Source of the DNA: an uncultured Bacilli bacterium
GTDB lineage: Bacteria; Bacillota_I; Bacilli_A; RF39; UBA660
DNA length: 41,137 nucleotides
NCBI GenBank assembly: GCA_947628895.1
Contig: CANRBS010000006.1
Coordinates: 1-41,137, forward strand
Direction of reading: 5' to 3'
Shown here: piece after piece, positions 15,459 through 39,473 of the stretch
How positions within the stretch are numbered: position 1 is the first letter of the stretch
Layout of the letters: each line of letters opens with the position of its first letter
Made by a program: the position numbers and the translations under genes
The notes under the pieces: model-generated
What the model was told of the DNA's origin: nothing
The model's input: the letters and a program-made list of their open reading frames with translations, nothing else
Databases searched by the model: none

Positions 15459-16769
15459 ATGAAAAAGAAAGTGTATATAGCTATGTCAGCTGATTTTATT
15501 CATAATGGACATATGAATATTATTGATGAAGGAGCAAAATACGGAGATGTAATTATTGGTCTTTTAACTGATGAAGCTATAGCAATGTATAAGCGTGCTC
15601 CATTATTAAATTATGAAAGTAGAAAACGTATTTTTGAAAGTTTTAAAAATGTAAAAGAGGTAGTAAAACAAGATACTCTAGATTATACTAATAATTTAAG
15701 AAAAATTAAACCTGACTATGTTATTCATGGAGATGATTGGCAAAAAGGCATTCAAAGTGTTATTAGAGAAAAAGTAATAGAAGTATTAAAAGAATGGGAT
15801 GGAAAACTAATTGAAGTTCCATATACTGTTGGAAGCAATTGTACAGATTTAGAAGAACAATATCGTTCTCTTACAAATACACCAGATAATAGACGTAGTA
15901 AACTAAAGAAGCTATTAAATTTAAAACCATATGTAACTGTTATGGAAGCTTCAAATGGTTTAAGTGGCTTAATTGTTGAAAATGCTAAAGAAGAAAATTT
16001 AGAAGAAGGCAAAGTCAAAGAGTTTGATGCAATGTGGGTTAGTAGTTTATGTGATTCAACATTTAAAGGAAAACCAGATATTGAATTAGTTGATTTAACA
16101 AGTAGAATTAATACTATAAATGAAATAATGGAAGTAACTACAAAACCAATTATTTTAGATGGAGATACTGGTGGAAAAACAGAGCATTTTGTATATAATG
16201 TTAAAACATTAGAAAGATTAGGAGTATCTGCAATTATTATTGAAGATAAAACTGGTCTTAAAAAGAATTCTTTATTTGGAACAGAAGTTAAACAAATATT
16301 AGAAGATCCAGATGTTTTTGCAGAAAAAATAAGAGAAGGTAAAAGTGCTTTAGCTACAAGAGACTTTATGATTTTTGCAAGATTAGAAAGCTTAATTGCT
16401 GGTAAACCAATTTCAGATGCATTATTAAGAGCTGATAAATATATTGATGCTGGTGCAGATGGTATTATGATTCACAGCAAAGAAAAAGATGGAGAAGATA
16501 TAAAGAAATTTTTAAAACAATTTAGAAAAAAATATAAAGAAGTTCCAGTAATAGTTGTACCTACAACATATAATCAATTTACTGAAGAAGAATTACATTC
16601 ATGGGGTGCAAATATTATTATTTATGCTAATCATTTACTTAGAAGTGCATATCCTGCTATGTTAAATACAGCAAAACAAATTTTAAAAGATGGCCGTAGT
16701 AAAGAAGCATCTGAAAAATATTGTACACCAGTAAAAGAAATATTATCAATTATACCAGGAGAGAAATAA
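15459..16769 (+). CDS. aepX: nucleotidyltransferase domain fused to phosphoenolpyruvate phosphomutase
   Basis: N-terminal cytidylyltransferase HNGH motif ([13 protein letters not shown]); C-terminal PEP mutase signature [14 protein letters not shown] and LDGDTGG. Confidence 0.93.
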
Positions 16770-16770
16770 A

Positions 16771-17883
16771 ATGATTGAAACTAAAGATTTTTTTGAGTAT
16801 TTAAAAAGTAAAAATTTTGACTTTTTTACAGGTGTACCAGATTCGCTTTTAAAAGATTTTTGTGCTTGTATAAAAGAAAATTGTGATACAACTCACAATA
16901 TTATTGCTGCTAATGAAGGAAATGCTGTTGCACTTGCAGCAGGTCATTATTTATCTTCAGGTAAATATGGTGTTGTTTATATGCAAAATTCTGGTATAGG
17001 TAATGCAGTAAATCCATTACTTTCTTTAGCAGATGAAGATGTATATCAAATACCAATGTTACTTATAGTAGGATGGCGTGGTGAACCTGGGGTTAAAGAT
17101 GAACCACAACATTTAAAACAAGGAAAAGTTACATTAGATTTATTCAAAGCAATGGATATTGAAACAATTATATTAGATGAAAATTATAAAGAACAATTAG
17201 ATTATATTTATAATTATTTACAAAACAATTCTAAACCAATTGCTTTAATTGTTAGAAAAAATACATTCACACCATATGAATTAAAATTAGATGAAAATAA
17301 TTATGAATTAAAAAGAGAAAAAGCATTATCAATTATATTAAACGAATTAGATAAAGATGACTTTATTGTATCTACAACAGGGAAAACATCTAGAGAAATT
17401 TTTGAACTTCGTGAACAAAGAAAAGAAAATCATCATCGTGATTTCTTAACAGTTGGTTCAATGGGTCATACATCTTCTATAGCATTAGGAATGTCTATTG
17501 GTACTGATAAAAATGTTTATTGTATTGATGGTGATGGATCATTTATAATGCATATGGGTTCTTTTGCAATAATACCAACAGTTGCAAAGAAAAATTTTAA
17601 ATATATTTTAATTAATAATGGAGCTCATGAATCAGTAGGAGGTCAACCAACTGTTGGATTTAATATTGATTTTACTAAATTATTAACATCATTAGGATTT
17701 AATAAAGTATTTGTTGCTAAAAATAAAGAAGAAATTATTGAAGGTGTTAAATCTTTAAAAGAAAATAGTTTACAAGCTTTAGTAATATATACAAAACTTG
17801 GTTCTAGAAAAGATTTAGGAAGACCAACCGTTTCTCCAGTTGAAAATAAAAAAGCATTAATGGATGAAATGAAAAGAGGATAG
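16771..17883 (+). CDS. aepY: phosphonopyruvate decarboxylase (TPP enzyme)
   Basis: TPP-enzyme motifs (FFTGVPDSLLKDF, NEGNAVALAAGHYL, IDGDGSFIMHMGSFAII...NNGAHESVGGQPT). Confidence 0.93.
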   Translation: MIETKDFFEYLKSKNFDFFTGVPDSLLKDFCACIKENCDTTHNIIAANEGNAVALAAGHYLSSGKYGVVYMQNSGIGNAVNPLLSLADEDVYQIPMLLIVGWRGEPGVKDEPQHLKQGKVTLDLFKAMDIETIILDENYKEQLDYIYNYLQNNSKPIALIVRKNTFTPYELKLDENNYELKREKALSIILNELDKDDFIVSTTGKTSREIFELREQRKENHHRDFLTVGSMGHTSSIALGMSIGTDKNVYCIDGDGSFIMHMGSFAIIPTVAKKNFKYILINNGAHESVGGQPTVGFNIDFTKLLTSLGFNKVFVAKNKEEIIEGVKSLKENSLQALVIYTKLGSRKDLGRPTVSPVENKKALMDEMKRG

Positions 17884-17884
17884 A

Positions 17885-18628
17885 ATGAAAGCAATAATTT
17901 TTAATTCAGGATTAGGAAAAAGAATGGGTGATTTTACTAATACTCATCATAAATCTATGGCTGTTTTAAATGATGGAAGCACAATTTTAGAAAGACAAAT
18001 AAAAATATTAAGTGAAAATGGAATTAAAGAATTTATTATTACAACTGGTCCATTTAGTGAACAAATAAAAGAGGTTTGTAATAAATTTAATGATTTATCC
18101 TTTACATTTGTTCAAAATGATATATATGATAAAACAAATTATATTTATTCAATGTATTTAGCAATACCTTATTTAAATGATGATTTTCTACTTTTACATG
18201 GTGATTTAGTATTTAATAAAGAATTAGTTGAAAAAATGTTAAATGATGAAAGACCTTCATTATGCTTGATAAATGAAACTAAAGAACTTCCTCAAAAAGA
18301 TTTTAAAGGAAGAGTAGAAAATGGACTATTAAAAGAAGTATCAATAAATATTTTTGATGATAATTGTTATGCTTTTCAACCATTATATAAATTAGACAAA
18401 GAAAGTATATTGAAATGGGCTAATAAAGTAAAAGAATTTGTTCAAAATGAAAATACTGGTGTTTATGCAGAAAATGCTTTAAATCAAATTTTATCTGAAA
18501 TGAAAATATATGCAATGTCATATAAAGATGATTATATTGATGAAATTGATAATTTAGATGATTATGAACGTGTAAAGGATCAAATAAGTGATTATGAAAG
18601 AAGCAAAACAAGAACAATTAATTTATAA
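17885..18628 (+). CDS. LicC/PntC-like cytidylyltransferase
   Basis: AIIFNSGLGKRM...KSMAVLNDGSTILERQIKIL NTP_transferase signature; located in phosphonate operon. Confidence 0.85.
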   Translation: MKAIIFNSGLGKRMGDFTNTHHKSMAVLNDGSTILERQIKILSENGIKEFIITTGPFSEQIKEVCNKFNDLSFTFVQNDIYDKTNYIYSMYLAIPYLNDDFLLLHGDLVFNKELVEKMLNDERPSLCLINETKELPQKDFKGRVENGLLKEVSINIFDDNCYAFQPLYKLDKESILKWANKVKEFVQNENTGVYAENALNQILSEMKIYAMSYKDDYIDEIDNLDDYERVKDQISDYERSKTRTINL

Positions 18629-19691
18629 TAATTATGAATTATTTTTTAGAAATGATTTAAATATAAAACCATTAGTTGTATGTAAAGATTCAGCTAAACA
18701 AAATATTGTTTTTAAAGAAATAAAAAAGAAATATCCGGATTTAGTTATATTTAATAAATATAGTTCTAATCCTAAATATGAAGAAATTGTTGATGGAATT
18801 GAAGAATATAAAAAGAATAAATGTAACTTTTTAATTTCAATAGGTGGTGGAAGCTCTATTGATGTTGCTAAAACTATTAAAGCCTTTTTGAATTTAGATA
18901 ATAAAGAAAATTATTTAAATCAAAAAATAATTCCTAATGATATAAAACATTTAGCTGTACCAACAACAGCTGGAACAGGGAGTGAATCAACTTATTTTGC
19001 AGTAATTTATTATAATCATGAAAAGAAATCAATTTCTGATAAATCTTTACTTCCAGATTATGTAATTTTAGAAGCTAGTTGCTTAAAAGGTTTACCATCA
19101 TATCAAAAAAAATCAACATTATTAGATGCATTATGTCAAGCAATTGAATCATATTATAGTGTAAATTCTACTTCTGAAAGTCAAGAATATGCTAAGAAAG
19201 CAATTAAAATTATTTTAGATAATTATAAAAAATATATTGATGAAGATGAAAATACTTATTCTAAAATGTTAGAAGCTTCAAATTTGAGTGGTAAAGCTAT
19301 TTGTATTAGTAAGACAACTGCTGCTCATGCTATGAGTTATAAAATTACATCTTTATATAATATTCCTCATGGATATGCTGTTGCTTTATGTTTTCCACAT
19401 ATTTGGGAATATATGAATAATAATTTAGAAAAAACTATTGATCCAAGAGGAAAAGAATATGTAAAGAATACATTTAAAGAAATTTGTATGTTATTTAATG
19501 TTAATTCATACGAAGAAGTATATAAAGAATTTATTGAAATATTAAATACTTTAGATTTACCAATTACAGGAATTATTAAAGAAAAAGATTTAGAATTATT
19601 AACTAATTCAGTTAATGTTGAAAGACTAAAAAATAATCCAATTTCTTTAAATGAACAAACAATTAATGAAATTTATAAAAAATTATTGTAA
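18594..19691 (+). CDS. iron-containing alcohol dehydrogenase, probable phosphonoacetaldehyde reductase
   Basis: GGGSSIDVAKTIKAF, AVPTTAGTGSE, TTAAHAMSYKIT..YNIPHGYAVAL Fe-ADH signatures; follows aepX/aepY; ATG at 18594 within the end of the upstream gene. Confidence 0.85.
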   Translation: MKEAKQEQLIYNNYELFFRNDLNIKPLVVCKDSAKQNIVFKEIKKKYPDLVIFNKYSSNPKYEEIVDGIEEYKKNKCNFLISIGGGSSIDVAKTIKAFLNLDNKENYLNQKIIPNDIKHLAVPTTAGTGSESTYFAVIYYNHEKKSISDKSLLPDYVILEASCLKGLPSYQKKSTLLDALCQAIESYYSVNSTSESQEYAKKAIKIILDNYKKYIDEDENTYSKMLEASNLSGKAICISKTTAAHAMSYKITSLYNIPHGYAVALCFPHIWEYMNNNLEKTIDPRGKEYVKNTFKEICMLFNVNSYEEVYKEFIEILNTLDLPITGIIKEKDLELLTNSVNVERLKNNPISLNEQTINEIYKKLL

Positions 19692-19889: not shown

Positions 19890-21515
19890 GTGGTAATCTT
19901 TTTGAAAAAATTAATATATTCATATATCCTTGTATTTTCTTTGTGCTTTATGTTATTAATTTATGAACCTATTATTATGTATGCAACAAATATTAATGAT
20001 TTTTGGTTTGATTTAAAAATAATGATAAAACCAGTATTTGTATTTTTTTTGTTAACTTTTTTAATAGGTTGTCTATTTTTTACAATAATTTATTTTGTAA
20101 ATAATAAGTTTTTTCAAAAAACAAAATTATATTATATAATGTTAATTTTGTTTTCAATTTGTTTTTTTGCTACATATATACAAGGAAATTATTTAATAGG
20201 TAATTTACCAGCTTTGGATGGAAGAAGTATTAATTGGAGTGGATATTTAAAAGAAAATATAGTTACATTAATAGTCTGGTTAGTAATTATTGGCATAAGT
20301 GTATTAATGATTAAAAAATTAAAAATAGAAAAAAGTGTAAAGATTTTTAGTTATGTATCACTTGTAGTATGTTTAATGCTTAGTACTTCATTAATAACAA
20401 CTTTAGTAAATAATAAAGCTTTTGTAAGTAAAGAAGGTTATTATGCAACTGATAAAAGTATAAATGATATATCTAGCAATAAAAACTTCTTGATTTTTAT
20501 GCTTGATGCAATAGATGAAGATACTTTTTATAAAGAATGGCAAAATAGAAGTGAGTATAAAGATTTATTTGATGATTTTACTTATTATACAGATGCAATG
20601 TCAGCATATGCATTTACTAGAGAATCAGTACCACAAATTTTAACTGGTTATTGGAATAAAAATGAAGAGGATTTTAGTGCATATGCAACTAATGCATATA
20701 ATAATTCTTCTTTATTTAAATCATTAAAAGATAATAACTATAAAATGAACATGTATGAAAATTATGTGGTTTGGAATGGTGAGCATTCATATAATATAGA
20801 AAATTTAGATCACATTGAAAATGCTAAAGTAAAATATTTTAAATTTTTTAAACAAGAACTTAGATATGTTTTATTTAAATATTTGCCATATAACTTAAAA
20901 AAGTATAGTAGAATTGATAGTATGGATTTTAATTTAACTATAAAAAAATTTACTATCGGTGATATTGAAAATTATAAAAATTTAACTGAAAATAAACTAA
21001 ATAAAATTGATTCAAATCTTTTCCAATTTTATCATATTGAAGGAGGACATGTACCTTTCAATGTTGATGAAAATTTAAATGAAATACCAAATGGTACTTA
21101 TGAACAAAAAGTATCTGCTTGCCTTAAAGTAATAAAAGCTTATTTGGATCGTTTAAAAGAAAACAATTCTTATGACAATTCAGTTATAATAATAATGGCA
21201 GATCATGGTTTTGATACTAAGGATATAACTTTAAATCGTTTTAATCCAATATTAATGATAAAAGGTATAAATGAAAAACATGAAACTATAATATCTGATC
21301 TTCCTGTATCTTATGATGATTTAAATAATGCTTATAATGATTTGTTATCAAATAAAAAAAGTACAGAACTTTTTGAAAATCGTAAAAAAGATAAAAAAAG
21401 AAATTTTATATTATATGAATATTTATATGAAAATCATATGGTTGAGTATAATACTACTGGTAGTGCAAAAGATATATCTAAATTTAAAGAAACAGGAAAT
21501 GTATTTGATAGGTAG
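19890..21515 (+). CDS. membrane-embedded alkaline-phosphatase/sulfatase-superfamily hydrolase or phosphotransferase (LtaS/EptA-like fold)
   Basis: N-terminal multi-TM region then FLIFMLDAIDEDTF...TRESVPQILTGY...HIEGGHVPF...VIIIMADHGFDT. Confidence 0.8.
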   Translation: MVIFLKKLIYSYILVFSLCFMLLIYEPIIMYATNINDFWFDLKIMIKPVFVFFLLTFLIGCLFFTIIYFVNNKFFQKTKLYYIMLILFSICFFATYIQGNYLIGNLPALDGRSINWSGYLKENIVTLIVWLVIIGISVLMIKKLKIEKSVKIFSYVSLVVCLMLSTSLITTLVNNKAFVSKEGYYATDKSINDISSNKNFLIFMLDAIDEDTFYKEWQNRSEYKDLFDDFTYYTDAMSAYAFTRESVPQILTGYWNKNEEDFSAYATNAYNNSSLFKSLKDNNYKMNMYENYVVWNGEHSYNIENLDHIENAKVKYFKFFKQELRYVLFKYLPYNLKKYSRIDSMDFNLTIKKFTIGDIENYKNLTENKLNKIDSNLFQFYHIEGGHVPFNVDENLNEIPNGTYEQKVSACLKVIKAYLDRLKENNSYDNSVIIIMADHGFDTKDITLNRFNPILMIKGINEKHETIISDLPVSYDDLNNAYNDLLSNKKSTELFENRKKDKKRNFILYEYLYENHMVEYNTTGSAKDISKFKETGNVFDR

Positions 21516-23591
21516 GTGTTGTTTGTGTTCTTGATAGATTTTTTAGGATTAATAATGAGATTTTGCTATAATTTATTTAAAAATTATGGTATAGCTATTA
21601 TATTTTTCACTTTAATTAGTAAGTTTGTATTATTACCACTTACAATTTGGGTACAAAAAAATTCAATAAAAATGGTAAAACTTCAACCTAAAATCAATCA
21701 AATTAAAATAAATTATTTTGGTGATAAAGATAAAATAGCAGATGAGCAATCTAAATTATTTAAAAAAGAAAAGTATAATGTATTTATATCTTTAATACCG
21801 CTTGCTATTCAAATTATACTATTATTAGGATTAATAGAAGTTATTAACAAACCATTAACATATATTGTAAATATATCTGATAATACAATAGAGCAATTAA
21901 AAAGTATTACAGTTAAAAATAATTCATTAAATCCAGAATCTTCTTCATTAGAATTAAATGTTGTAAGTGATATTCAAAATAATAATTATATAGATGAATA
22001 TAGTAAAATTGATAATAATAACATTGATAAAATTAAAGATTTAAATTTATCATTTTTAGGAATTAATTTAACATGGATTGCAAGTTCAAAATTAGGTATA
22101 GCTCTATTAGTTCCAATTTTGGCAGGATTAAGTTCTTTGATTTTATGTATCTTTCAAAATAGAATTAATGTTTTGCAATCTTCACAATCTACTGCAAATA
22201 AATATGGAACACTTATATTTTCAGTTGGATTATCATTATATTTAGGAATATTTGTTCCAGCAGGTGTTGCATTATATTGGGTATTTAGTAATTTGTTTTC
22301 TATTATTCAACAATTGCTTTTAAATTTATTTATTAATCCTAAAAAGTATATTGATTATGAAGCATTAGAAAAAACAAATTTAGAATTAAAAGAACTAAAT
22401 GAAATAAATAAGAAAAATAAAATGACAAGAGAGATGAAAATAAAATCTCGTAATGATTATAAAAAATTCTTTAAAATAATTAATAAACATTTAGTATTTT
22501 ATTCTGAAAGCAATGGATTTTATAAATATTTTAAAGGTTACATTGAATATATTTTAAATAATACAAATATAACAATTCATTATATAACTAGTGATTATAA
22601 TGATAATATCTTTGAATTAGCAAAGGAAAACCCACAAATTAAACCTTATTTTATTGATGATAAAAGATTAATAACATTAATGATGAAAATGGATGCTGAT
22701 GTTGTAGTTATGACAATGCCAGATTTAGATAATTATCATATAAAAAGAAGTTATTTAAGAAAAGATATTGAATATATATTTGTTCAACATAGTTTGTCTA
22801 GTATTAATATGACAATGCGTAATAGATGTTTAAATGCTTTTGACTCTATTTTAGCTTGTGGTCAAGATCAATATGACGAATTTGTTGAGATGGGTAAGTT
22901 ATTTAACTTAAATCAAAAAATAATAAAATGTGGTTATCCTCTAATTGATGATATGATTGAAGAATACAATAAAAATAAAGTAGAAAATAAGGTAAAGAAA
23001 ATTTTAATAGCACCATCTTGGCAAAAAGATAATATTATTGATTTATGTTTAGATAAAATTTTAGATAAATTAAAAGATAAAGATTATCAAATAATAGTAA
23101 GACCTCATCCACAACATGTAAGACATATGAAAGATAAATTTACAAAAATGCAAGAAGAATATAAGGATAATAAGAATATAATTATTCAAACAGATTTTTC
23201 TAAAAATGATACTGTTTTTAATGCTGATATTTTAATAACTGATTGGTCTAGTATATCATTAGAATATGCATTTGTAACAAAGAAACCAGTAATATTTATT
23301 GATACACCAATGAAAATAATGAATCCTGAATATAAAAAAATAAAAATTGAACCAATAAATATTTGGATTAGAGAAAAAATAGGTAAATTAATACCACTAA
23401 AAGATATTAAAAATATAGATAAAGAAGTAGATGAAATATTGAAAAATTATAAAAAATATCAAAGTGAGATTGAAAAAATTACAAATGAGCATGTTTACAA
23501 TATAGGTAAAAGTGGTGAAGTAGGTGCAGAATATATAATATCTGTTATTGAAGAAAAGATTAAAGAAAGAAAGGAGAAGGAAAATGAATAA
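21516..23591 (+). CDS. fusion protein: YidC/Oxa1-like domain + CDP-glycerol glycerophosphotransferase (TagB/TagF)-like domain
   Basis: N-terminal NYGIAIIFFTLISKFVLLPLTIWVQKNSIKMVKLQPKI and IFVPAGVALYWVFSNLFSIIQQ (YidC); C-terminal FVQHSLSS, IIVRPHPQH, LITDWSSISLEYAF (TagB/F); one uninterrupted 691-aa ORF, GTG start directly after upstream TAG. Confidence 0.85.
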   Translation: MLFVFLIDFLGLIMRFCYNLFKNYGIAIIFFTLISKFVLLPLTIWVQKNSIKMVKLQPKINQIKINYFGDKDKIADEQSKLFKKEKYNVFISLIPLAIQIILLLGLIEVINKPLTYIVNISDNTIEQLKSITVKNNSLNPESSSLELNVVSDIQNNNYIDEYSKIDNNNIDKIKDLNLSFLGINLTWIASSKLGIALLVPILAGLSSLILCIFQNRINVLQSSQSTANKYGTLIFSVGLSLYLGIFVPAGVALYWVFSNLFSIIQQLLLNLFINPKKYIDYEALEKTNLELKELNEINKKNKMTREMKIKSRNDYKKFFKIINKHLVFYSESNGFYKYFKGYIEYILNNTNITIHYITSDYNDNIFELAKENPQIKPYFIDDKRLITLMMKMDADVVVMTMPDLDNYHIKRSYLRKDIEYIFVQHSLSSINMTMRNRCLNAFDSILACGQDQYDEFVEMGKLFNLNQKIIKCGYPLIDDMIEEYNKNKVENKVKKILIAPSWQKDNIIDLCLDKILDKLKDKDYQIIVRPHPQHVRHMKDKFTKMQEEYKDNKNIIIQTDFSKNDTVFNADILITDWSSISLEYAFVTKKPVIFIDTPMKIMNPEYKKIKIEPINIWIREKIGKLIPLKDIKNIDKEVDEILKNYKKYQSEIEKITNEHVYNIGKSGEVGAEYIISVIEEKIKERKEKENE

Positions 23592-23859
23592 TAAAAAGGT
23601 GTTATTTGCTTCTTATACATTAATTGGATTAGGTACATATTTCTTACTTTCTCTTAATGTAAAAGCATACATAGATCCATCAGTAATGACATATGCTATT
23701 CAAGCAGTAGCAGGAGTAGTAATTGCAGTTGGAGCATTTGTAGGTATTTATTTTCGTAAAGCTAAGAAAAAAATTAGTAATAAATTAGGAATTGATGAAA
23801 ATAAAAATAAAGAAGTAGAAAAAGATGAAATAATAGTAAAGAATAAGAAGAATAAATAA
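23584..23859 (+). CDS. small membrane protein with AYIDPS motif
   Basis: ATG at 23584 preceded by AAGGAGAAGG; TM + basic tail; overlaps end of fusion gene. Confidence 0.75.
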   Translation: MNNKKVLFASYTLIGLGTYFLLSLNVKAYIDPSVMTYAIQAVAGVVIAVGAFVGIYFRKAKKKISNKLGIDENKNKEVEKDEIIVKNKKNK

Positions 23860-25439: not shown

Positions 25440-26336
25440 ATGGAAAAAGTAAAAAATTATATAAAATTAATTCGTGTAAAACATTATATAAAAAATTTGT
25501 TAATTTTTTTACCATTAATTTTTAGTGGAAACTTTTTTAATTTTAATATGTTATTATTAACAATTATAGAATTTATTGCTTTTTGTCTCGCTGCATCATC
25601 TATTTATATAATAAATGATTTAATGGATTATGAAAAAGACAAATTACATCCAATTAAAAAGAATAGACCAATTGCATCAGGAAAAATAAAAAAGAGTGAA
25701 GCAAAATTTTGTGTACTAATACTAATATTATTAATATTTGTAGTTCAATTTATGCTATTACAATTTAACATACTAAATACAAGTACTTTTGTTTCTTCCA
25801 CACTTATAGTTTTTGCTTATATAATAATAAATATTTTTTATAGTGTATATGCTAAACATATTCCAATTTTAGATATTTTAATATTAGCATTAGGCTTTAT
25901 ACTTAGAGTATATTTTGGTGGAAGTTTCTTAAATATAGAAATTTCAAATTGGTTATATTTAACAATATTAAGTTTTTCTTTATATCTTGTTTTAGGTAAA
26001 AGAAAAGGAGAATTACAAAAAAATAAAGATTTATCTAGAAAGGTATTAAAATATTATAATGAATCTTATTTAGATAAATTTATGCATATTTATTTAGCAT
26101 TAACATTAGTTTTCTATTCTTTATGGTGTATGAATTATGGCAATGATTTATTATTGTATAGTATTTTTATATTAATATTTATTGTTATGAAATATAGTTT
26201 AGATATTGAAAATACAGAAGATTATTTAGGAGACCCAGTAGAAACTTTACTACATGATAAAATTTTGTTAGTAAGTATATTTGTTTATGCTTTATATATA
26301 GGAGTTGTTTTATATGCAAAAAGCCTATGTCTATGA
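25440..26336 (+). CDS. UbiA-family prenyltransferase, decaprenyl-phosphate phosphoribosyltransferase-like
   Basis: RVKHYIKNLLIFLPLIFSG...YIINDLMDYEKDKLHPIKKNRPIASG motif typical of DPPR synthase-like UbiA. Confidence 0.88.
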   Translation: MEKVKNYIKLIRVKHYIKNLLIFLPLIFSGNFFNFNMLLLTIIEFIAFCLAASSIYIINDLMDYEKDKLHPIKKNRPIASGKIKKSEAKFCVLILILLIFVVQFMLLQFNILNTSTFVSSTLIVFAYIIINIFYSVYAKHIPILDILILALGFILRVYFGGSFLNIEISNWLYLTILSFSLYLVLGKRKGELQKNKDLSRKVLKYYNESYLDKFMHIYLALTLVFYSLWCMNYGNDLLLYSIFILIFIVMKYSLDIENTEDYLGDPVETLLHDKILLVSIFVYALYIGVVLYAKSLCL

Positions 26337-26973
26337 TTTTGATAAAACAATTTATAATTCTGATAGTACAATAGACTTTTTCTTTTTTTGTTTAAAAAAA
26401 AGAATTAAGTTAATTAAATATTTACCTATTATTTTATATTATTTTGTATTACATTTTTTTAAAATAGTTTCAACAAAACAATTTAAAGAAAAATTTTTCA
26501 GTTTTTTAAAAGAGCTTGATAATGTTGATGAAATGGTAGAATTATTTTGGAATAAAAATAATAATAAAATATGTGATTTCTTTATAAAAGATTTAGAAAG
26601 TAGTAATAGACCAATAATATATATTGTAAGTGCATCACCTGAATTTTTATTAAAAGGATATACTAAAAATTTAAAAAATGTAAAATTATTAGCTACTAAT
26701 ATGGATAAAAGAACTGGCAAAATAAAAGGAGAAAATTGTAAAGGAGAAGAAAAGTTAAATTTTTTACCTAAAAATATTATAATAGAAAAATTCTATTCTG
26801 ATTCTTATAGTGATAGATTTATAGCTGAAAAGTCAAAAAAATCATATATAGTTTCAAATGGAAAAATTTTAGATTGGGATAAAAAAATATTTAAAATAAA
26901 AAAGATAAAGAAATACTTAATTATGTTACTTTTTGTAATAATTATAATATTTTTGATATTAAATATATTATAA
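26314..26973 (+). CDS. HAD-IB-type phosphatase with C-terminal TM helix
   Basis: AYVYDFDKTIYNSDSTIDFF (DxDxT), IYIVSASPEFLL, C-terminal TM; ATG at 26314 inside end of UbiA gene. Confidence 0.85.
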   Translation: MQKAYVYDFDKTIYNSDSTIDFFFFCLKKRIKLIKYLPIILYYFVLHFFKIVSTKQFKEKFFSFLKELDNVDEMVELFWNKNNNKICDFFIKDLESSNRPIIYIVSASPEFLLKGYTKNLKNVKLLATNMDKRTGKIKGENCKGEEKLNFLPKNIIIEKFYSDSYSDRFIAEKSKKSYIVSNGKILDWDKKIFKIKKIKKYLIMLLFVIIIIFLILNIL

Positions 26974-27094
26974 TTTTAAAAAGTTGCTCTTGATATATAT
27001 ATATATAAGTTATAATGTAAATAGAAAATTTAGATATTAGTATTAAATTCACAGCAAATTTAAATTTTGTTTACAGATAATTAAATAAAATTTG

Positions 27095-27123
27095 TTGTAA
27101 CCTTAATTTTTGTATGCTATAAT
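27095..27123 (+). promoter_or_regulatory. promoter upstream of sugar transferase
   Basis: TTGTAA-N17-TATAAT. Confidence 0.6.
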
Positions 27124-27137
27124 TGTATGTAGTAAAA

Positions 27138-27166
27138 ATTTATAGGGTCTCTCTATAAATATTTTT
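27138..27166 (+). promoter_or_regulatory. 5' leader hairpin with trailing T-run
   Basis: ATTTATAG-GGTCTCT-CTATAAAT followed by ATTTTTG, just after predicted transcription start. Confidence 0.55.
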
Positions 27167-27198
27167 GACAAAAGCTATATAGTAAGGAGTTATATATT

Positions 27199-27870
27199 AT
27201 GAACGGTATGGAAGTTGAACTTGATAGTGATTCATCAAAAAAAATAGATTTCAAAAAAATCTTTTATTTATGTGTTAAAAGATTTTTTGATATTTTTGTT
27301 TCTTTGGTTGCCTTAATAATTTTATTACCATTATTTTTAATATTAGCTGTTTTAATAAAGATAGATTCTAAAGGTAAAGTGTTTTATAAACATAAAAGAA
27401 TAGGAAAAAATGGAAAAATTATTTATTTATATAAATTTAGAAGTATGTATAATGATGCTGAAGAAAGACTTAAAGAAATGTTAAAAGATCCAAAAATAAA
27501 AAAAGAATGGGAAGAAAATTTTAAAATTGATAATGATCCTAGAATAACTAGAGTTGGAAAAATATTAAGAAGAACTTCAATTGATGAACTACCACAATTA
27601 CTTAATATTATTAAAGGAGACATGAGTATTGTAGGACCAAGACCACTTGTAGAAGATGAAATAAAAAAATATGGTAAAAATAAAGATAAATTTTTAAGTG
27701 TAACTCCAGGTTTAACAGGATGGTGGGCTTGTAATGGTAGAAGTTGTAGAACATATAAAGATAGAATAAAATTAGAATTATATTATGTTGATAATAGAAG
27801 TATATGGTTAGACATTAAAATTATTTTTATGACTGTTGGTGCAGTTATAAAAGGACATGGAGCTAAATAG
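27199..27870 (+). CDS. priming sugar-phosphate transferase (PF02397-type)
   Basis: YLYKFRSMYNDAEE...LRRTSIDELPQLLNIIKGDMSIVGPRPL...PGLTGWWACNGR. Confidence 0.95.
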   Translation: MNGMEVELDSDSSKKIDFKKIFYLCVKRFFDIFVSLVALIILLPLFLILAVLIKIDSKGKVFYKHKRIGKNGKIIYLYKFRSMYNDAEERLKEMLKDPKIKKEWEENFKIDNDPRITRVGKILRRTSIDELPQLLNIIKGDMSIVGPRPLVEDEIKKYGKNKDKFLSVTPGLTGWWACNGRSCRTYKDRIKLELYYVDNRSIWLDIKIIFMTVGAVIKGHGAK

Positions 27871-27893
27871 AATTCTATATAAGGAGATGTTAC

Positions 27894-29342
27894 ATGAAAA
27901 GGAAAAAAACGGTAAAAAAATTAAAAACATATGTTTTACTAAGCACAATATTTGCTTTAATATCAATATTCAGTTTTATTTTATTTACTGGAATATTATT
28001 AAAATTGAATATTTTACCAACTAAATATTTAATTTTATTTTTTATAATTATATTTATAGTTTATTTAATACTATTTTTATTTTCTTTTAAAATAAAAAAT
28101 AAAGTAATAAAAATTATTTCTTATATTTTAAGTACTTTAATATCTATAATATTTATAGTTGGTTCAGTGTATCTTAAAAATACATCTAATTTTTTAAATA
28201 AAGTTCAAGGTGAAGATTATGATAGTTTATCTTTTTCTATGATTGTATTGAAAGATAGTAAATATAATGGTATTTCAGATTTAAAGGATAAATTTATTGG
28301 ATATTTAGATGATGAATATAAAAATGATATAATAGAAAATTTAAAAAATGTTTCTTTTGAAGAATTTTTAAGTACTGATGCAAATTCTTTATATGATAGT
28401 TTAATAAATAAGGATATAAGTGCATTTGTTATTGAAGATAATTTTTATCAAGTATTAAAGGAAGAGATAAAGGAAGTAGAAGAAAAAACAAAAATTATTT
28501 ATAATTTTGAAGTAAAAATTAAAGTTAAAAAAGAAGAAGAAAATTTAGCTTCAATTAATGAACCATTTATTGTTTATATAAGTGGTATAGATCAATATGG
28601 AAAAATAGAATCAGTTAGAGGTAGAAGTGATGTAAATCAACTTGCTGTAATTAATCCAAATACACATCATATTTTACTTTTAAATACACCTAGAGATTAT
28701 TATGTACAACTTGCTGGTACTAGTGGTACAAAAGACAAATTGACACATGCTGGTATGTATGGTGTAAATAAAAGTATAGAAACACTTGAAAATTTTTATA
28801 ATATAGATATTGATTATTATTTTAAAGTTAATTTTAATACTGTAGTTAAACTAGTAGATACAATTGGTGGAATTGAAGTATATTCTGATACAGATTTAGT
28901 TTTATTCCAAGATAAATCTACACATATAAAAGTTGGAGTGAATAAATTAAATGGAAAACAAGCATTAGCATATGCTAGAGAAAGATTTGGATATCTTACT
29001 GGTGATAGACATAGAGGAGAAAATCAACAAGCTGTAATTAAAGCAATAATAGATAAAGTTACTTCATCAAAAGTTTTAATTGGTAAATATAATAGTATTT
29101 TAAAATCATTAGAAGGTTCTTTTCAAACAAATATGCCGGCAAATACCATTACATCATTTTTGAAAAAACAACTAAATGAAATGCCAAATTGGAAAATAGA
29201 TACTTATTCAGTAACTGGTAGTGATGGAAGAGATTATACATATACTATGGGAAATAAGACAAAACTATATGTAATGATACCAAATGAAAAGACAGTAAAA
29301 ACAGCTAAGGAAAAAATTAAATCAATTTTAGAAGAAAAATAA
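27894..29342 (+). CDS. LytR-CpsA-Psr (LCP) family glycopolymer ligase
   Basis: ISGIDQYG...GRSDVNQLAVINPNTHHILLLNTPRDYYV...YARERFGYLTGDRHRGENQQ. Confidence 0.95.
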   Translation: MKRKKTVKKLKTYVLLSTIFALISIFSFILFTGILLKLNILPTKYLILFFIIIFIVYLILFLFSFKIKNKVIKIISYILSTLISIIFIVGSVYLKNTSNFLNKVQGEDYDSLSFSMIVLKDSKYNGISDLKDKFIGYLDDEYKNDIIENLKNVSFEEFLSTDANSLYDSLINKDISAFVIEDNFYQVLKEEIKEVEEKTKIIYNFEVKIKVKKEEENLASINEPFIVYISGIDQYGKIESVRGRSDVNQLAVINPNTHHILLLNTPRDYYVQLAGTSGTKDKLTHAGMYGVNKSIETLENFYNIDIDYYFKVNFNTVVKLVDTIGGIEVYSDTDLVLFQDKSTHIKVGVNKLNGKQALAYARERFGYLTGDRHRGENQQAVIKAIIDKVTSSKVLIGKYNSILKSLEGSFQTNMPANTITSFLKKQLNEMPNWKIDTYSVTGSDGRDYTYTMGNKTKLYVMIPNEKTVKTAKEKIKSILEEK

Positions 29343-29361
29343 CAATTGGAGGTAAATATAA

Positions 29362-30570
29362 ATGAAAATTGGAGTAGTAGGGACAGGATATGTAGGATTA
29401 TCTCTTGCTTGCTTATTTAGTAAAAGTAATAAAGTTAGAGCAATTGACATTGTAAAAGAAAAAGTTGATATGATTAATAATCATAAGTCACCAATAGTAG
29501 ATAAAGAAATAGAAAAATATTTAACAGAAGAAAAATTAGATTTAGAAGCAACTACTGATTCTGAATCTGTGTATAAATGGGCTGATTTAATCATAATAGC
29601 TACTCCAACAAATTATGATATAGATAAAGGATATTTTGATACTAGTAGTATTGAAAGTGTAATTGAAAATATTTTATCAGTTAATAGAAAAGTTGCAATA
29701 GTAATAAAATCAACTGTACCGGTTGGATATACTGAAAGTATAATAGAAAAATACAATTACAAAAATATAGTTTTTAGTCCAGAATTTTTAAGAGAAGGAA
29801 CCGCATTATATGATAATTTGTATCCAAGTAGAATTATAGTAGGTAGAGATATAAATTGTAAAGAAGCAGTAGAAACATCTAAAATATTTGCAGAATTATT
29901 GAAAAATGGTGCTGTATCAAAAGATGTTCCAGTATTATTTACTGATACTACAAAATCTGCTGAATGTATTAAATTATTTGCTAATACTTATTTAGCCTTG
30001 AGAGTAGCATATTTTAATGAAATAGATTCATATGCTGAAGAAAATAATTTAAACACTAAAGAAATAGTTGAGGGAATTTGTTTAGATCCAAGAATAGGAA
30101 TGTATTATAATAATCCTAGTTTTGGTTATGGTGGATATTGTTTACCAAAAGATACTAAACAATTACTTGCAAATTACAAAGATATACCACAAAAATTAAT
30201 AACAGCTATTATAGAAAGCAATGCTGTTAGGAAAGACTTTATTGCTAATAGAATTATAGAAATTTTAAATAAAAATAAAAGTGATAAAAAAACAGTTGGT
30301 GTTTACAGATTAACTATGAAATCAAATAGTGATAATTTTAGATCTAGTAGTATTCAAGATGTAATTAAAATATTAAAGAATAAAGGTATTGAAATTATAA
30401 TTTATGAACCAACACTTAAAAATCAAGAATTTTTTGATGATTATAAATTATGTAATGATTTTAATGAATTTAAAGAGAAATCAGATGTAATTATTGCTAA
30501 TAGATTTACAGAAGAGCTAGAAAATGTAAAAGAAAAAGTATATACTAGAGATATATATAGAAGGGATTAA
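29362..30570 (+). CDS. UDP-glucose 6-dehydrogenase family
   Basis: [71 protein letters not shown]. Confidence 0.95.
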
Positions 30571-30598
30571 AAATATAAATATATTTTAGGTGAGTATT

Positions 30599-31672
30599 AT
30601 GAAAAGTGTTAAAATATCAGTTATAATGCCTGTATATAATGTTGAAGAATTTTTACCAAAAGCCATAGAAAGTGTCTTAAATCAAACTCTTAAAGATTTT
30701 GAATTATTTGTTGTAGATGATGGCTCTACTGATAGTAGCGGAAAAATATGTGATGAATATGCAGCTAAAGATAAAAGAGTAAAGGCATTACATAAGAAAA
30801 ATGGTGGGGCTCCCGAAGCTAGAAATATGGCTATTGAAAAAGCAAAAGGAAAATATATATATTGTATTGATTCAGATGATTGGATTGAAAAAGATTATTT
30901 AGAAAAAATGTACGATTTAGCTGAAAAAAATAATGCTGATATTGTTATAACTGGTTTTTTAATGGAATATTATCAAAATGGAAAATCTGTAATTTATAGT
31001 ACATCTTGCGAAGATGTGGTATATTCTAATAAAAAAGATTTTAGAAAAAATGCATATAAATATTTTAATAATAGCTTTTTAAGCTTAGTTTGCAATAAGT
31101 TATTAAAAAGAGATATTATTATGAAAAACAATATTAGATTTCCTAAAACTAAGTGGGATGATCATCATTTTAATATGGATTTCTTAATGGATGCTAATGT
31201 TGTTGTAATATCTTCAATAGCAAAATATCATTGGTATCGTTCTAGAGCAGGAGCAGAAACAATGATTAATTATAGTGATCCAAATATGTTTGAAAAAAGA
31301 ATAGAACATTATGAACATGTTTTAAAACTATATAAGCATTGGAATTTACTTGACGATGAAAAAAGTATGGATGGAATTAGTTGCTATTTTGTTGGTAGGG
31401 CTTTTCAATGTATTCAAGAACTTACTGACAATAAAAATTTGACTATGAAAGAGAAAAGAGCAAAGATTAAATATATTTTGGAAAACAAATATACAAAAAA
31501 TTCTTTAAAGAATGCCAAATCATTATCTACTAAGTTCAAGATATTAGTAATACCAATGAAACTTAATAATATTACATTATGTATTATTTTTAGCAAAGTA
31601 ATAAATTTTATTAGAGCTCATTTTAAAGGCTTATTTATTAAGATAAAAGAAAAAGAAGTGCATGGTAAGTAG
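30599..31672 (+). CDS. GT2 family glycosyltransferase
   Basis: ISVIMPVYNVEEFLPKAIESVLNQTLKDFELFVVDDGSTDSSG...YIYCIDSDDWI. Confidence 0.95.
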   Translation: MKSVKISVIMPVYNVEEFLPKAIESVLNQTLKDFELFVVDDGSTDSSGKICDEYAAKDKRVKALHKKNGGAPEARNMAIEKAKGKYIYCIDSDDWIEKDYLEKMYDLAEKNNADIVITGFLMEYYQNGKSVIYSTSCEDVVYSNKKDFRKNAYKYFNNSFLSLVCNKLLKRDIIMKNNIRFPKTKWDDHHFNMDFLMDANVVVISSIAKYHWYRSRAGAETMINYSDPNMFEKRIEHYEHVLKLYKHWNLLDDEKSMDGISCYFVGRAFQCIQELTDNKNLTMKEKRAKIKYILENKYTKNSLKNAKSLSTKFKILVIPMKLNNITLCIIFSKVINFIRAHFKGLFIKIKEKEVHGK

Positions 31673-31679
31673 GTGATTT

Positions 31680-32948
31680 ATGAAAAAGACTAAATACTTA
31701 ATTATAGGTGCCGGAATTACAGGCCTAACATTTGCTAATTATGTTGATGATTATTTAATTGTAGAAAAAGATGAAAAAATAGGTGGTTATTGCAAAACAA
31801 TTAAAAAAAATGGATTTGTATTTGACTATGCAGGCCACTTTTTCCATTTTAAAACTGATGAATGGAAAAAGTTTTTTTTAGATAATGTTAAAAATAGTGA
31901 ATTAGTTAAAAAAAATAAATGTACTAAAATATATTATAAAGATAAATTAATAGATTATCCATTTCAAATGAACATTCATCAACTTGAAAAACAAGATTTT
32001 ATAAATTGTCTTTATGATTTATTCAATAAAGAAGAAAAAGAAAAATATTCTAACTTTTTAGAAATGTTATATGGAAAATTTGGTAAATCAATAACTGAAA
32101 TGTTTTTAAAACCATATAATGAAAAATTATATGCAGTTGATTTAAAAAAGCTAGATACTAATGCAATGGGTCGCTTTTTTCCATATGCAGATAAAGAACA
32201 AATAATCAAAAATATGAAAGAAGAAAATGCAAATTCCTATAATAATACATTTTTATATCCTAAAGAGGGAGCAGAATTTTTTATAGAAATTTTAGAAAAA
32301 AAATTAAATTCAGAAAAAATTTTATTAAATACTACTATTGAAAAAATAAATTTAAAAGAAAAATATGTGATAGTAAATAATGATGAAAAAATTTATTTTG
32401 AGTATTTAATTAACACTATACCATTTAATAATTTTTTAAAATTAACAGAAGAGAAAGAATATATAGAATTATCTAAAAAGCTATCATATAATAAAGTACT
32501 AGTATTAAATTTAGGATTCAATAAAAAATCTAAATATACACAAGAACATTGGATTTATGTACCTGAAAAAGAATATAATTATTATCGTGTAGGGTTTTAT
32601 AATAATATTTTGGGTCAAGATAAATTAAGTTTATATATTGAAATAGGTCTATCAAAAGATGATAAGGTTAATGTTGATTTAGAACTTAAAAAAACTCTTG
32701 AAAATTTAAAAGTTCAACATATTATAGATAAAGATATGAAATTAGAAGAAAGTGAAATTATTTTAATGAATCCTGCTTATGTACATATAGAAGATAAAAC
32801 AAATAAGCAAATAGATAATGTAATGAAAAAAATGAATGAAAATAATATTTATAGTATTGGTAGATATGGAGCATGGACATATTGTTCAATGGAAGATTGT
32901 ATGATAAGTGCTAAAGAATTAGCAAGTAAATTGATGAAAGGAAAATAA
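31680..32948 (+). CDS. FAD-dependent oxidoreductase, amine-oxidase/UGM-like
   Basis: YLIIGAGITGLTFANYVDDYLIVEKDEKIGGYCKTI dinucleotide-binding motif; FDYAGHFFHF. Confidence 0.8.
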   Translation: MKKTKYLIIGAGITGLTFANYVDDYLIVEKDEKIGGYCKTIKKNGFVFDYAGHFFHFKTDEWKKFFLDNVKNSELVKKNKCTKIYYKDKLIDYPFQMNIHQLEKQDFINCLYDLFNKEEKEKYSNFLEMLYGKFGKSITEMFLKPYNEKLYAVDLKKLDTNAMGRFFPYADKEQIIKNMKEENANSYNNTFLYPKEGAEFFIEILEKKLNSEKILLNTTIEKINLKEKYVIVNNDEKIYFEYLINTIPFNNFLKLTEEKEYIELSKKLSYNKVLVLNLGFNKKSKYTQEHWIYVPEKEYNYYRVGFYNNILGQDKLSLYIEIGLSKDDKVNVDLELKKTLENLKVQHIIDKDMKLEESEIILMNPAYVHIEDKTNKQIDNVMKKMNENNIYSIGRYGAWTYCSMEDCMISAKELASKLMKGK

Positions 32949-32964
32949 CTAATTGGTGATATTT

Positions 32965-34842
32965 ATGTATGATTATAAAAATATAATAAAGCAAATAGCT
33001 AAATATGAATATATATCATTTGATGTTTTTGATACTTTGATAAAAAGAAATATTGAAAATCCAACTGATTTATTTGATTTAGTTCAAAAAATTTATAATC
33101 AAACTAATAAACCATTATTAGAAAATTTTAAAGAAAAAAGAATTGAAGCTGAAAGGAAAGCTAGAGAATTATCAAGCCATAAAGAGCCTAATATAGATGA
33201 TATTTATAAAATAATTGATATAGATAATAAAAAACAAGTAAAAGAATTAGAAATTAAATTAGAAATAAATATATGTCAGCAAAATAAAGATTTTTACTCA
33301 ATATATAATTATGCTAAGCAAAGTAAGAAAAAAATTATTATAACTTCAGATATGTATTTAAGAAAAGAAACTTTAGAAGAAATATTATCAAATGCTAATA
33401 TTAAATACGATTATCTTTTTTTATCAAATGATATAAAATTAAATAAACATAATGGTAAAATATACCCATATATATTAAAAAAATTAAATATAAAACCAAG
33501 TCAATTATTGCATATAGGTGATTCTAAAAGATCTGACTATATAATTCCTAAATTATATAGAATTAAATCTATATTAATTCCTAAAAAAATTAATAAATTA
33601 AGATATTATAAAGATTATAAAGCAAATGAACTTAGTGATAATATTATAAAAAATTATATTAATAATAATTTACCATTAGATAAAGATATTTATTATCAAA
33701 TTGGTTACGAAATATTAGGTATTATATTATTGGGATATTCTAATTGGCTAAAAGATAGTTTACAAAAAGAAAAGATAAATAAAGTATTTTTTTTATCTAG
33801 AGAAGGTGCATTATTAAAAAAAGCTTTTGATTTAATAAACAACACGAAAATAGAAACAAAATATTTATATTTATCAAGAAGAAGTACAAGACCTAGTTTG
33901 CTTAAAAATATTAATAATTTAGAAGAAGTATTTGATATTTGTAAAACACGAAGAATAATAGATTTAGAAAGTTTTTTTATGAATGTTGGTTTGAATATTA
34001 ATGATTATAATGATTTAATAAAAAAATATAATATTACTAAAAATATTAATATTGATAAAATAGAGAATTTTGATAAATTATTTGATTCAATAAAAAAAGA
34101 TATATTAAAAAATGCTAAAAGAGAAGAAAAAAACTTACTATTATATTTAAATAGTCAAGGCTTTAAAGATAAAATAGCTATATCAGATATAGGATGGTCT
34201 GGAACAATGCAGTCATCATTAATAAATATTGCTTATCAAAATAAAATAGATGTTGATATAACTGGATATTATGTTGGACAATTAAAAGCAGCTTATAAAA
34301 ATATAAAAAAAGGTGATAAACAATTTGGTTATTTATTTAATTATGAATCTGATGAAATGCAAATTAGAGCATTTATAAGTTTATTTGAAAATTTATTTTC
34401 TTGTAATCACGGAACAACAATTAAATATGAAGAACATTCTGGTATAATTAAACCAATATTAGCGGATTATGAGCATTCAGATAAAGAAAGCAAAATTTTT
34501 GAAACAATACAAGAAGGAGCATTAGATTTTGTTAAAAATTTTCAAACTTTAAATATAAATTTAACTGAATTTAATATTTCATTTGTTTCTTATGGTATTA
34601 AAAGGCTTGGTATTAATCCAACATTATTTGATGTTAAACTTTTTGGAGATATTACTTATTTAGATACAAAAATATTTTATCTTGCAAAACCTAGAAATAT
34701 AATTTATTATATAATTAGACCAAAAATGTTATTAAATGATTTATTGAATAGTAATTGGAAAGTTGGATTTTTAAAAAGATTATTTAAAATAAAACTAAAT
34801 TATTATAAAATTTATAAACTTATGGCAGGTGGTAATAAATGA
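32965..34842 (+). CDS. large HAD-superfamily protein (COG5610-like) of polysaccharide loci
   Basis: ISFDVFDTLIKR, IITSDMYLRKETL, LLHIGDSKRSDY plus C-terminal domain with YLSRRSTRPSLL; ATG at 32965. Confidence 0.8.
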   Translation: MYDYKNIIKQIAKYEYISFDVFDTLIKRNIENPTDLFDLVQKIYNQTNKPLLENFKEKRIEAERKARELSSHKEPNIDDIYKIIDIDNKKQVKELEIKLEINICQQNKDFYSIYNYAKQSKKKIIITSDMYLRKETLEEILSNANIKYDYLFLSNDIKLNKHNGKIYPYILKKLNIKPSQLLHIGDSKRSDYIIPKLYRIKSILIPKKINKLRYYKDYKANELSDNIIKNYINNNLPLDKDIYYQIGYEILGIILLGYSNWLKDSLQKEKINKVFFLSREGALLKKAFDLINNTKIETKYLYLSRRSTRPSLLKNINNLEEVFDICKTRRIIDLESFFMNVGLNINDYNDLIKKYNITKNINIDKIENFDKLFDSIKKDILKNAKREEKNLLLYLNSQGFKDKIAISDIGWSGTMQSSLINIAYQNKIDVDITGYYVGQLKAAYKNIKKGDKQFGYLFNYESDEMQIRAFISLFENLFSCNHGTTIKYEEHSGIIKPILADYEHSDKESKIFETIQEGALDFVKNFQTLNINLTEFNISFVSYGIKRLGINPTLFDVKLFGDITYLDTKIFYLAKPRNIIYYIIRPKMLLNDLLNSNWKVGFLKRLFKIKLNYYKIYKLMAGGNK

Positions 34843-35990
34843 AAAAAATTTTGTTTGTTTCTAATGCAATTCAAGAAGGTGGAGCAACAAAATCATTATT
34901 TTATTTAGCCAATACTTTAAAAAATGATTTTGAACCTATAATATTAGTAACTAAAAAAGGTTATTTAACAGACATGTGTGATAAAAATAATATAAAATAT
35001 TTAATTTTAAATTATAAACCTTTTTTAATTGATGAAAGAGCAACAGGATTAAAAAAAATTATTAAAAGAATATTACGACCATTACTAAAATTAAGATATA
35101 TAATTTGTAATAAGATTTCATTAAATAAAATTGATAAATTAATTAATATGGAAGAAATCTCATTAATTCATACAAATGTAAATAGAGATGATTTTGGTGC
35201 TTTATTAAGTAAAAAATTTAATATTCCACATATATGGCATTTAAGAGAATTTGGTGATTTAGATTATAAATGTTATTCTTATAGAAAAAATTATATTAAA
35301 TTTATGAATGAAAATACCAAATATTTTATTGCAATTTCTAATGCAGTAAAGAATCACTTTGTTACAAAAGGAATTAACAAAGATAAAATAAAAGTTATAT
35401 ATAATGGTGTTAAAATAAATAATAATCCAAAAATAAATGAAAATAAAAATTTAAATATTTTATTTATGGGAGGAATTCAAGAAAGTAAAGGGCAGCATGA
35501 ATTAATAGAAGCTTTAAATCTTATACCAAAAGAAATAAGCAAAAATATAAAAGTTGATTTCTATGGTACAAGTGTTAAAGATTATAAAAATTTATTAATT
35601 AATAAAATAAATGAATATAATCTTCAAAACATAACATTTCATGATTACATAAATAATATTGATAATATAATGAGTAATTATAATGTGGGAATTATGTGTT
35701 CTAAATCTGAAGCTTTTGGTAGAGTAATTGTAGAATATATGGCAAATAAATTAATTACTATTGTACCAAATAGAGGGGCTTGTCCAGAAATAGTATCTAA
35801 TGGTACAGGATTTGTTTATAAATACGGTGATTATGATGATTTATCAAACATTATTATTAAAATCTATAAAATGAATTTTGAAGAAAGAAAAGAAATTTTT
35901 GATAAAGGTTATGAAAGAGCAAAATTAAATTTTTCTGCTGAAAAAAATGCTGAAAATATAATAAAATTATATGAAAAAATATTAAAATAA
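34839..35990 (+). CDS. GT4-type glycosyltransferase
   Basis: VSNAIQEGGATKSLFYLA, VIYNGVKI, SKSEAFGRVIVEYMANKLITIVPNRGACPEIV. Confidence 0.93.
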   Translation: MKKILFVSNAIQEGGATKSLFYLANTLKNDFEPIILVTKKGYLTDMCDKNNIKYLILNYKPFLIDERATGLKKIIKRILRPLLKLRYIICNKISLNKIDKLINMEEISLIHTNVNRDDFGALLSKKFNIPHIWHLREFGDLDYKCYSYRKNYIKFMNENTKYFIAISNAVKNHFVTKGINKDKIKVIYNGVKINNNPKINENKNLNILFMGGIQESKGQHELIEALNLIPKEISKNIKVDFYGTSVKDYKNLLINKINEYNLQNITFHDYINNIDNIMSNYNVGIMCSKSEAFGRVIVEYMANKLITIVPNRGACPEIVSNGTGFVYKYGDYDDLSNIIIKIYKMNFEERKEIFDKGYERAKLNFSAEKNAENIIKLYEKILK

Positions 35991-36004
35991 AGGAGTGAAT
36001 ATAT

Positions 36005-38053: not shown

Positions 38054-38076
38054 ACTATAAAAAGTAAGGTGAAAGA

Positions 38077-39432: not shown

Positions 39433-39473
39433 AAATAATTATTTTAAGGAGATAGTCAAAGTAGGTGAAACAA

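Follow-up and report, generated by a model that had tools for sequence, protein, structure and literature searches.

The DNA described here, a window of 41,137 nucleotides (contig C6 of a 1.46 Mb genome in 76 contigs), encodes a single protein in which a YidC/Oxa1-type membrane domain is joined to a TagF-like phosphotransferase. Both families are known, and what is new, within the literature searched, is their joining and the module that surrounds it. The module includes a 91-aa co-inherited membrane partner (named YIDP here), a sulfatase-fold EptA/PbgA-like enzyme that is usually adjacent and in one locus (L093) fused in front, and synthesis of CDP/CMP-activated headgroups by genes near the fusion. 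From locus to locus the activated headgroup changes while the core of the module stays the same. The literature searched, with most subscription journals outside its scope, yielded no description of the fusion or of the module. The fusion, conserved groove and catalytic residues, co-inherited partners and donor-making neighbours can be read from the sequences, and the arrangement suggests that a protein-insertion fold was recruited to place phospho- or phosphono-groups on the cell surface. That the sulfatase-fold enzyme, the YidC-TagF protein and YIDP form a trans-membrane relay for such decoration has, in our judgement, about an even chance of being correct. The relevant features of the window are as follows.

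15459..16769, + strand: PEP mutase with N-terminal cytidylyltransferase domain (Fom1-like architecture; profile match, EDKXXXXXNS motif)
16771..17883, + strand: phosphonopyruvate decarboxylase, Ppd (TIGR03297 453.6 bits, cut-off 312.5)
17885..18628, + strand: LicC/PntC-type nucleotidyltransferase (PF12804)
18588..19691, + strand: iron-containing alcohol dehydrogenase (PF00465; TIGR03405 125 bits, below its cut-off)
19890..21515, + strand: sulfatase/alkaline-phosphatase-superfamily membrane enzyme, 541 aa, abutting the fusion gene upstream (PF00884 30.4 bits)
21525..23591, + strand: YidC-TagF fusion gene, 688 aa from the probable start GTG 21525; frame also open from GTG 21516
21585..22325, + strand: YidC/Oxa1 core (PF02096, 112.7 bits; match to YidC crystal structures; model helices)
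21621..21623, + strand: groove Lys K33 (K36 from 21516), codon AAG, aligned with the YidC groove Arg
21852..22079, + strand: extracellular helical insert between membrane helices 2 and 3 (about residues 110-185)
22482..23300, + strand: TagF-like phosphotransferase domain (PF04464; Pfam, TagF fold)
22788..22790, + strand: His 422 (QH/PH motif), counterpart by motif of TagF H444
23106..23108, + strand: His 528 (RPHPQ motif), counterpart by motif of TagF H584
23584..23859, + strand: YIDP gene, small membrane protein of 91 aa, overlapping the end of the fusion gene and directly downstream of it

The frame 21516-23591 (+) contains no stop codon. GTG 21525 is more likely than GTG 21516 to be the translation start, since homologues begin there and a ribosome-binding-like GGTAGGTG precedes it; the residue numbers K33, Q96, W252, N256, H422 and H528 are counted from this codon. 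An earlier note on this DNA had proposed a real YidC-TagF open reading frame, and profile searches agree: in the frame from 21516, PF02096 covers residues 24-270 at 112.7 bits (Pfam; cut-off 35) and PF04464 residues 323-595 at 58.1 bits (Pfam; cut-off 22.1). The N-terminal half also matches TIGR03592 (yidC_oxa1_cterm) at 107.4 bits (NCBIfam; cut-off 84.3), and a profile of nine fusions finds YidC crystal-structure sequences at 1e-13. The AlphaFold model, made from a 62-sequence alignment (mean pLDDT 90.3, pTM 0.71), comprises a five-helix YidC core with C1 hairpin, an outer helical insert, a linker and a two-lobed transferase. The core with its cytoplasmic hairpin occupies 21-35, 37-81 (hairpin), 86-108, 191-214, 223-243 and 246-270. 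The insert is variable, being short or missing in a class of fusions of about 630 aa. A sequence search of the C-terminal half against the PDB returned no useful match at E<=10 whereas fold comparison did, the top Foldseek matches being TagF 3l7k (E=1.3e-10) and 3l7l (2.2e-9), followed by a capsule-polymerase multienzyme. By topology, the TagF-like domain is cytoplasmic. H422 and H528, both invariant in 62 fusions, are assigned to TagF H444 (WHG motif) and H584 by motif and not by superposition; the roles of the two TagF residues have been described (PMC11666461; for H584 also PMC5974469).

The same architecture was found in other genomes, as the earlier note had proposed to check. Among 385 genomes of the order, nine full-length single-frame fusions were found, this one included; the other eight belong to various genera of its family and are 61-76% identical to it. 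For L036, one of these nine, the alignment runs up to a TGA near its end, and a broken copy occurs additionally in genome G083. A wider scan of 84,980 species genomes gave at least 352 relatives, and the best 80 of these, to which all locus counts below refer, are all fusions over essentially their whole length. The Bacillota hosts among these 80 belong to Bacilli, Erysipelotrichaceae/Solobacterium, Lachnospiraceae, Oscillospiraceae and other Clostridia, and more than ten Candidatus Saccharibacteria assemblies also carry the fusion, so that at least two phyla of gut and rumen bacteria include carriers. In genome G436, from Saccharibacteria, the fusion shares a contig with another YidC, which argues against a binning error. 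Because the source genomes are mostly metagenome assemblies, an assembly or annotation artefact joining two genes was considered, but the junction and single frame are the same in the family homologues and the best 80 loci, and the whole protein yields one confident model (AlphaFold, pLDDT 90.3). A frameshift or missed stop is ruled out by the full-length one-frame homologues (61-76%) and these 80 loci, and the artefact reading as a whole is extremely improbable. Nor is the fusion the genome's only YidC: the second, stand-alone copy whose presence the earlier note had wished confirmed exists as a 304-aa frame scoring 117.9 bits.

The fusion is rare, occurring in one of 392 genomes of an evenly drawn phylum sample, and we therefore regard its distribution as patchy and its movement between lineages as probable. 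In a YidC-domain tree the fusions make up one clade (100/100, with a long stem) apart from the stand-alone YidCs of the same or related hosts. This would fit a single fusion event followed by transfer and leaves a simple recent origin from the hosts' own YidC unsupported, although the long stem makes the root position uncertain. One tree row labelled as a fusion but lying outside the clade (L141) is a different protein. This protein (L141:1402-3564; G442:C1:36921-37484) is likewise long and contains a YidC domain (PF02096 84 bits); inspected by eye, it has Asn where the groove Arg would stand, and its long C-terminal region matches no Pfam family. No phage relatives of the fusion were found in a scan of IMG/VR. 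Three unannotated fecal "Bacteriophage sp." records of 5-9 kb (MT838376.1, MT836947.1 and MT836777.1) encode versions of the fusion with 46-54% identity; they are probably pieces of bacterial DNA.

Both halves of the protein have been kept by selection. Of 62 fusions, 61 have Lys at the groove position and one has Arg, while among 22 stand-alone YidCs of the family 20 have Arg and two have Lys; the stand-alone YidC of this genome has Arg. The earlier note took the change from Arg to Lys as compatible with altered function. That argument fails, as the charge is kept throughout the fusions and Lys occurs in stand-alone YidCs as well. A positive charge is strictly conserved in YidC grooves, and the E. 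coli R366K protein is active, in a sensitised Y517A background (PMC8920935). With groove chemistry kept, Lys is no sign of lost function. Across the 62 fusions the positive charge, W252, Q96 and N256 are invariant or nearly so, W252 being the invariant Trp that stands where other YidCs have an aromatic neighbour of the groove charge. Mean pairwise identity is 66-67% for the YidC half and membrane parts and 74% and 59% for the two transferase lobes, and dN/dS is well below 1 in both halves. Both halves are thus under purifying selection, and the YidC half is not a degenerate anchor.

YIDP consists of a membrane segment YIDPSVMTYAIQA (full form YIDPSVMTYAIQAVAGVVIAVGAFVGIYFRKAKKK) and, in the alignment, a conserved acidic tail like DENKNKEVESDE; no Pfam family scores above cut-off. 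By profile search it is present in all ten genomes of the order that have the fusion (broken in G083, as is the fusion) and absent from the other 375, bar one weak match of 22.7 bits. It lies directly downstream of the fusion in 55 of the best 80 loci. Many YIDPs have a signal-peptide-like N-terminus, and those of Saccharibacteria have only a short N-terminal tail. In G083 (G083:C2:145057-145906; L005, L153) stop codons interrupt the fusion gene as well as YIDP, as though the whole module were decaying together.

The 541-aa partner encoded upstream has five membrane helices and an extracellular domain (model pLDDT 93.3), and its closest solved folds by Foldseek include PbgA/YejM, MCR-1 and EptC. 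D206, T243, H382, H387, D438 and H439 are invariant in 42 homologues. From its helices, its domain and the Thr and metal-ligand-type residues, it is predicted to be a phosphotransferase of the EptA/LtaS/PbgA type. The gene is adjacent or fused to the YidC-TagF gene in 49 of the best 80 loci (of at least 352); in about 30 it is not adjacent, with many contigs ending early, and paralogues may serve from elsewhere in those genomes. In one metagenome-assembled genome the sulfatase-fold, YidC and TagF-like domains form one frame of 1204 aa (L093:1624-5235). Since the sulfatase domain would lie outside and the YidC half opens with an out-to-in helix, this order fits catalytic sites on both membrane faces, the first catalytic domain of the predicted topology being outside and the last inside.

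The genes upstream indicate what the transferase might use. A phosphonate setting is implied by the CMP-phosphonates that the earlier note named as test substrates, and the window does hold a PEP mutase (motif EDKXXXXXNS present, TIGR02320 above cut-off), Ppd, a second nucleotidyltransferase and an iron-type alcohol dehydrogenase. To judge from its context, the dehydrogenase probably converts phosphonoacetaldehyde to 2-hydroxyethylphosphonate. CMP-activated phosphonates are known intermediates of phosphonate tailoring, and the genes of the window, read with the logic of Fom1 and PntC, suggest a CMP-phosphonate donor here, probably CMP-hydroxyethylphosphonate (PMC6697681). CDP-glycerol, which the earlier note had named for testing as a donor, is not indicated, as the neighbours point to CMP-phosphonate here and to other CDP headgroups elsewhere. 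Phosphonate is not the common donor either, since PEP mutase occurs in only 6 of the best 80 loci (strict cut; at least 352 relatives). Among 103 near neighbours scanned there were 31 NTP_transf_3, 18 PLP/aminotransferase-fold, 8 CTP_transf_like and 7 IspD-like proteins, together with 3 choline kinases, 2 choline transporters, PEP mutase and Ppd. These suggest headgroup genes of choline, ethanolamine or polyol type at other loci, where phosphonate genes are mostly absent. A long nucleotidyltransferase of about 610 aa occurs in 22 of 80 loci and is joined to a CobD-like PLP domain in both examples examined. At L053:8093-9982 and L113:8002-9900 a cytidylyltransferase of about 630 aa is fused to a CobD-like PLP decarboxylase, which we take to be an FrbH-like architecture, and might make a CDP-ethanolamine-like donor. 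Downstream in the window (25440-40970) lies a polysaccharide cluster with UbiA phosphoribosyltransferase-like, HAD, priming sugar transferase, LCP ligase, UDP-sugar dehydrogenase, glycosyltransferase, TupA-like ATP-grasp and DUF362 genes, a possible source of an acceptor glycan. A type I signal peptidase gene is found near the module in 18 of 80 neighbourhoods, e.g. L048:6188-6649.

In the proposed relay, the cytoplasmic TagF-like domain would take a phospho- or phosphono-headgroup from a CDP or CMP donor (in this genome probably a CMP-phosphonate, either CMP-hydroxyethylphosphonate or a relative of it) and transfer it to a membrane-bound acceptor that would be held at the YidC groove or passed through the bilayer by it. 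YIDP would be an obligatory small subunit, and the sulfatase-fold enzyme at the outer face would hand the headgroup on to an acceptor outside the cell, probably the product of the polysaccharide cluster at 25440-40970. We infer the identity of the donor, the lipid acceptor, the crossing of the membrane (flippase step) and the order of transfer. The earlier note had imagined the YidC fold as a membrane tether, acceptor groove or flippase-like platform, and explanations of this class are reasonable. Lipid scrambling in vitro and in simulation is reported as a general property of YidC and other Oxa1 proteins (PMC10491306), and gives movement of a lipid here indirect support. The specific idea that a domain of the YidC/Oxa1 superfamily has the job of passing a lipid-linked headgroup across the membrane, while physically linked to the lipid-charging enzyme (and in L093 also to the one that unloads the lipid outside), is tentative and leans towards the doubtful.

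The main rival to the relay is that the YidC half serves YIDP as a dedicated insertase, inserting or holding it, while YIDP anchors or regulates the TagF-like domain and no lipid is moved; YIDP would then have one membrane helix, N-out/C-in in the forms that lack a signal-like N-terminus. Strict co-occurrence of YIDP with the fusion, the gene overlap and the retained hallmarks of the groove all favour such an insertase, as does the short N-terminal tail of the Saccharibacteria YIDP, a topology that YidC handles alone. However, another YidC is present in 10 of 12 host genomes checked and in this genome, so a second insertase for a single substrate seems unneeded, and the signal-peptide-like N-terminus of many YIDPs also speaks against it. 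We regard this reading as unlikely, although it and the relay could both hold. Slightly less probable is a passive tether, in which the YidC fold does no more than hold a TagB/TagF-type transferase at the membrane, the product being flipped by another transporter. TagF is itself a peripheral membrane enzyme, and ABC-2 transporter genes lie near some loci, as a tether would allow; yet conservation of the YidC half, groove residues included, is close to that of the enzyme half, and of a simple tether one would expect drift or replacement.

Known systems resemble parts of the module. The fusion shares with YidC/Oxa1/Alb3 insertases (PF02096, TIGR03592) the five-helix core, C1 hairpin, positive groove residue and aromatic LYW segment, but its C-terminal tail is replaced by a transferase of about 380 aa, Lys stands in place of Arg, it forms a separate clade and its insertase activity is putative. 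TagF/TagB/TarF-like CDP-glycerol phosphotransferases and TagF-like capsule polymerases (PF04464; 3l7k, 8a0c) have the same fold and two His motifs, whereas the transferase half of the fusion is joined to an integral membrane domain and its genomic setting points to other CDP/CMP donors. A PEP mutase motif, Ppd and two nucleotidyltransferase domains are common to the window and to phosphonate tailoring (Pnt) clusters with PepM-cytidylyltransferase and PntC, for which LicD-like phosphotransferases are named as neighbours while YidC and glycerophosphotransferase are absent from the text (PMC6697681). The partner encoded at 19890-21515 shares five membrane helices, an alkaline-phosphatase-superfamily domain, and Thr and metal-ligand-type residues with EptA/MCR, PbgA/YejM and LtaS, but is encoded with or fused to YidC-TagF. 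In the three-part GtrA-GtrB-GtrC decoration of periplasmic glycans, a lipid carrier is charged, flipped and unloaded by transfer outside. The logic of the module is alike; there is no sequence relation, the group is a phospho-headgroup and not a sugar, and two to three steps would lie in one polypeptide.

Whether any Oxa1-family member scrambles lipids as its real task becomes directly testable with this protein, since a YidC domain is fused to a lipid/glycopolymer-type transferase, co-inherited with YIDP and usually found beside an outer-face transferase. The final transfer step that is missing for phosphonate/CDP-headgroup decoration in gut Bacillota and Saccharibacteria would also gain a candidate in this module. 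A longer variant of the fusion, 823 aa (L106:9425-11893), has an extra N-terminal membrane helix and a domain of about 150 aa that matches no Pfam family and is presumably extracellular.
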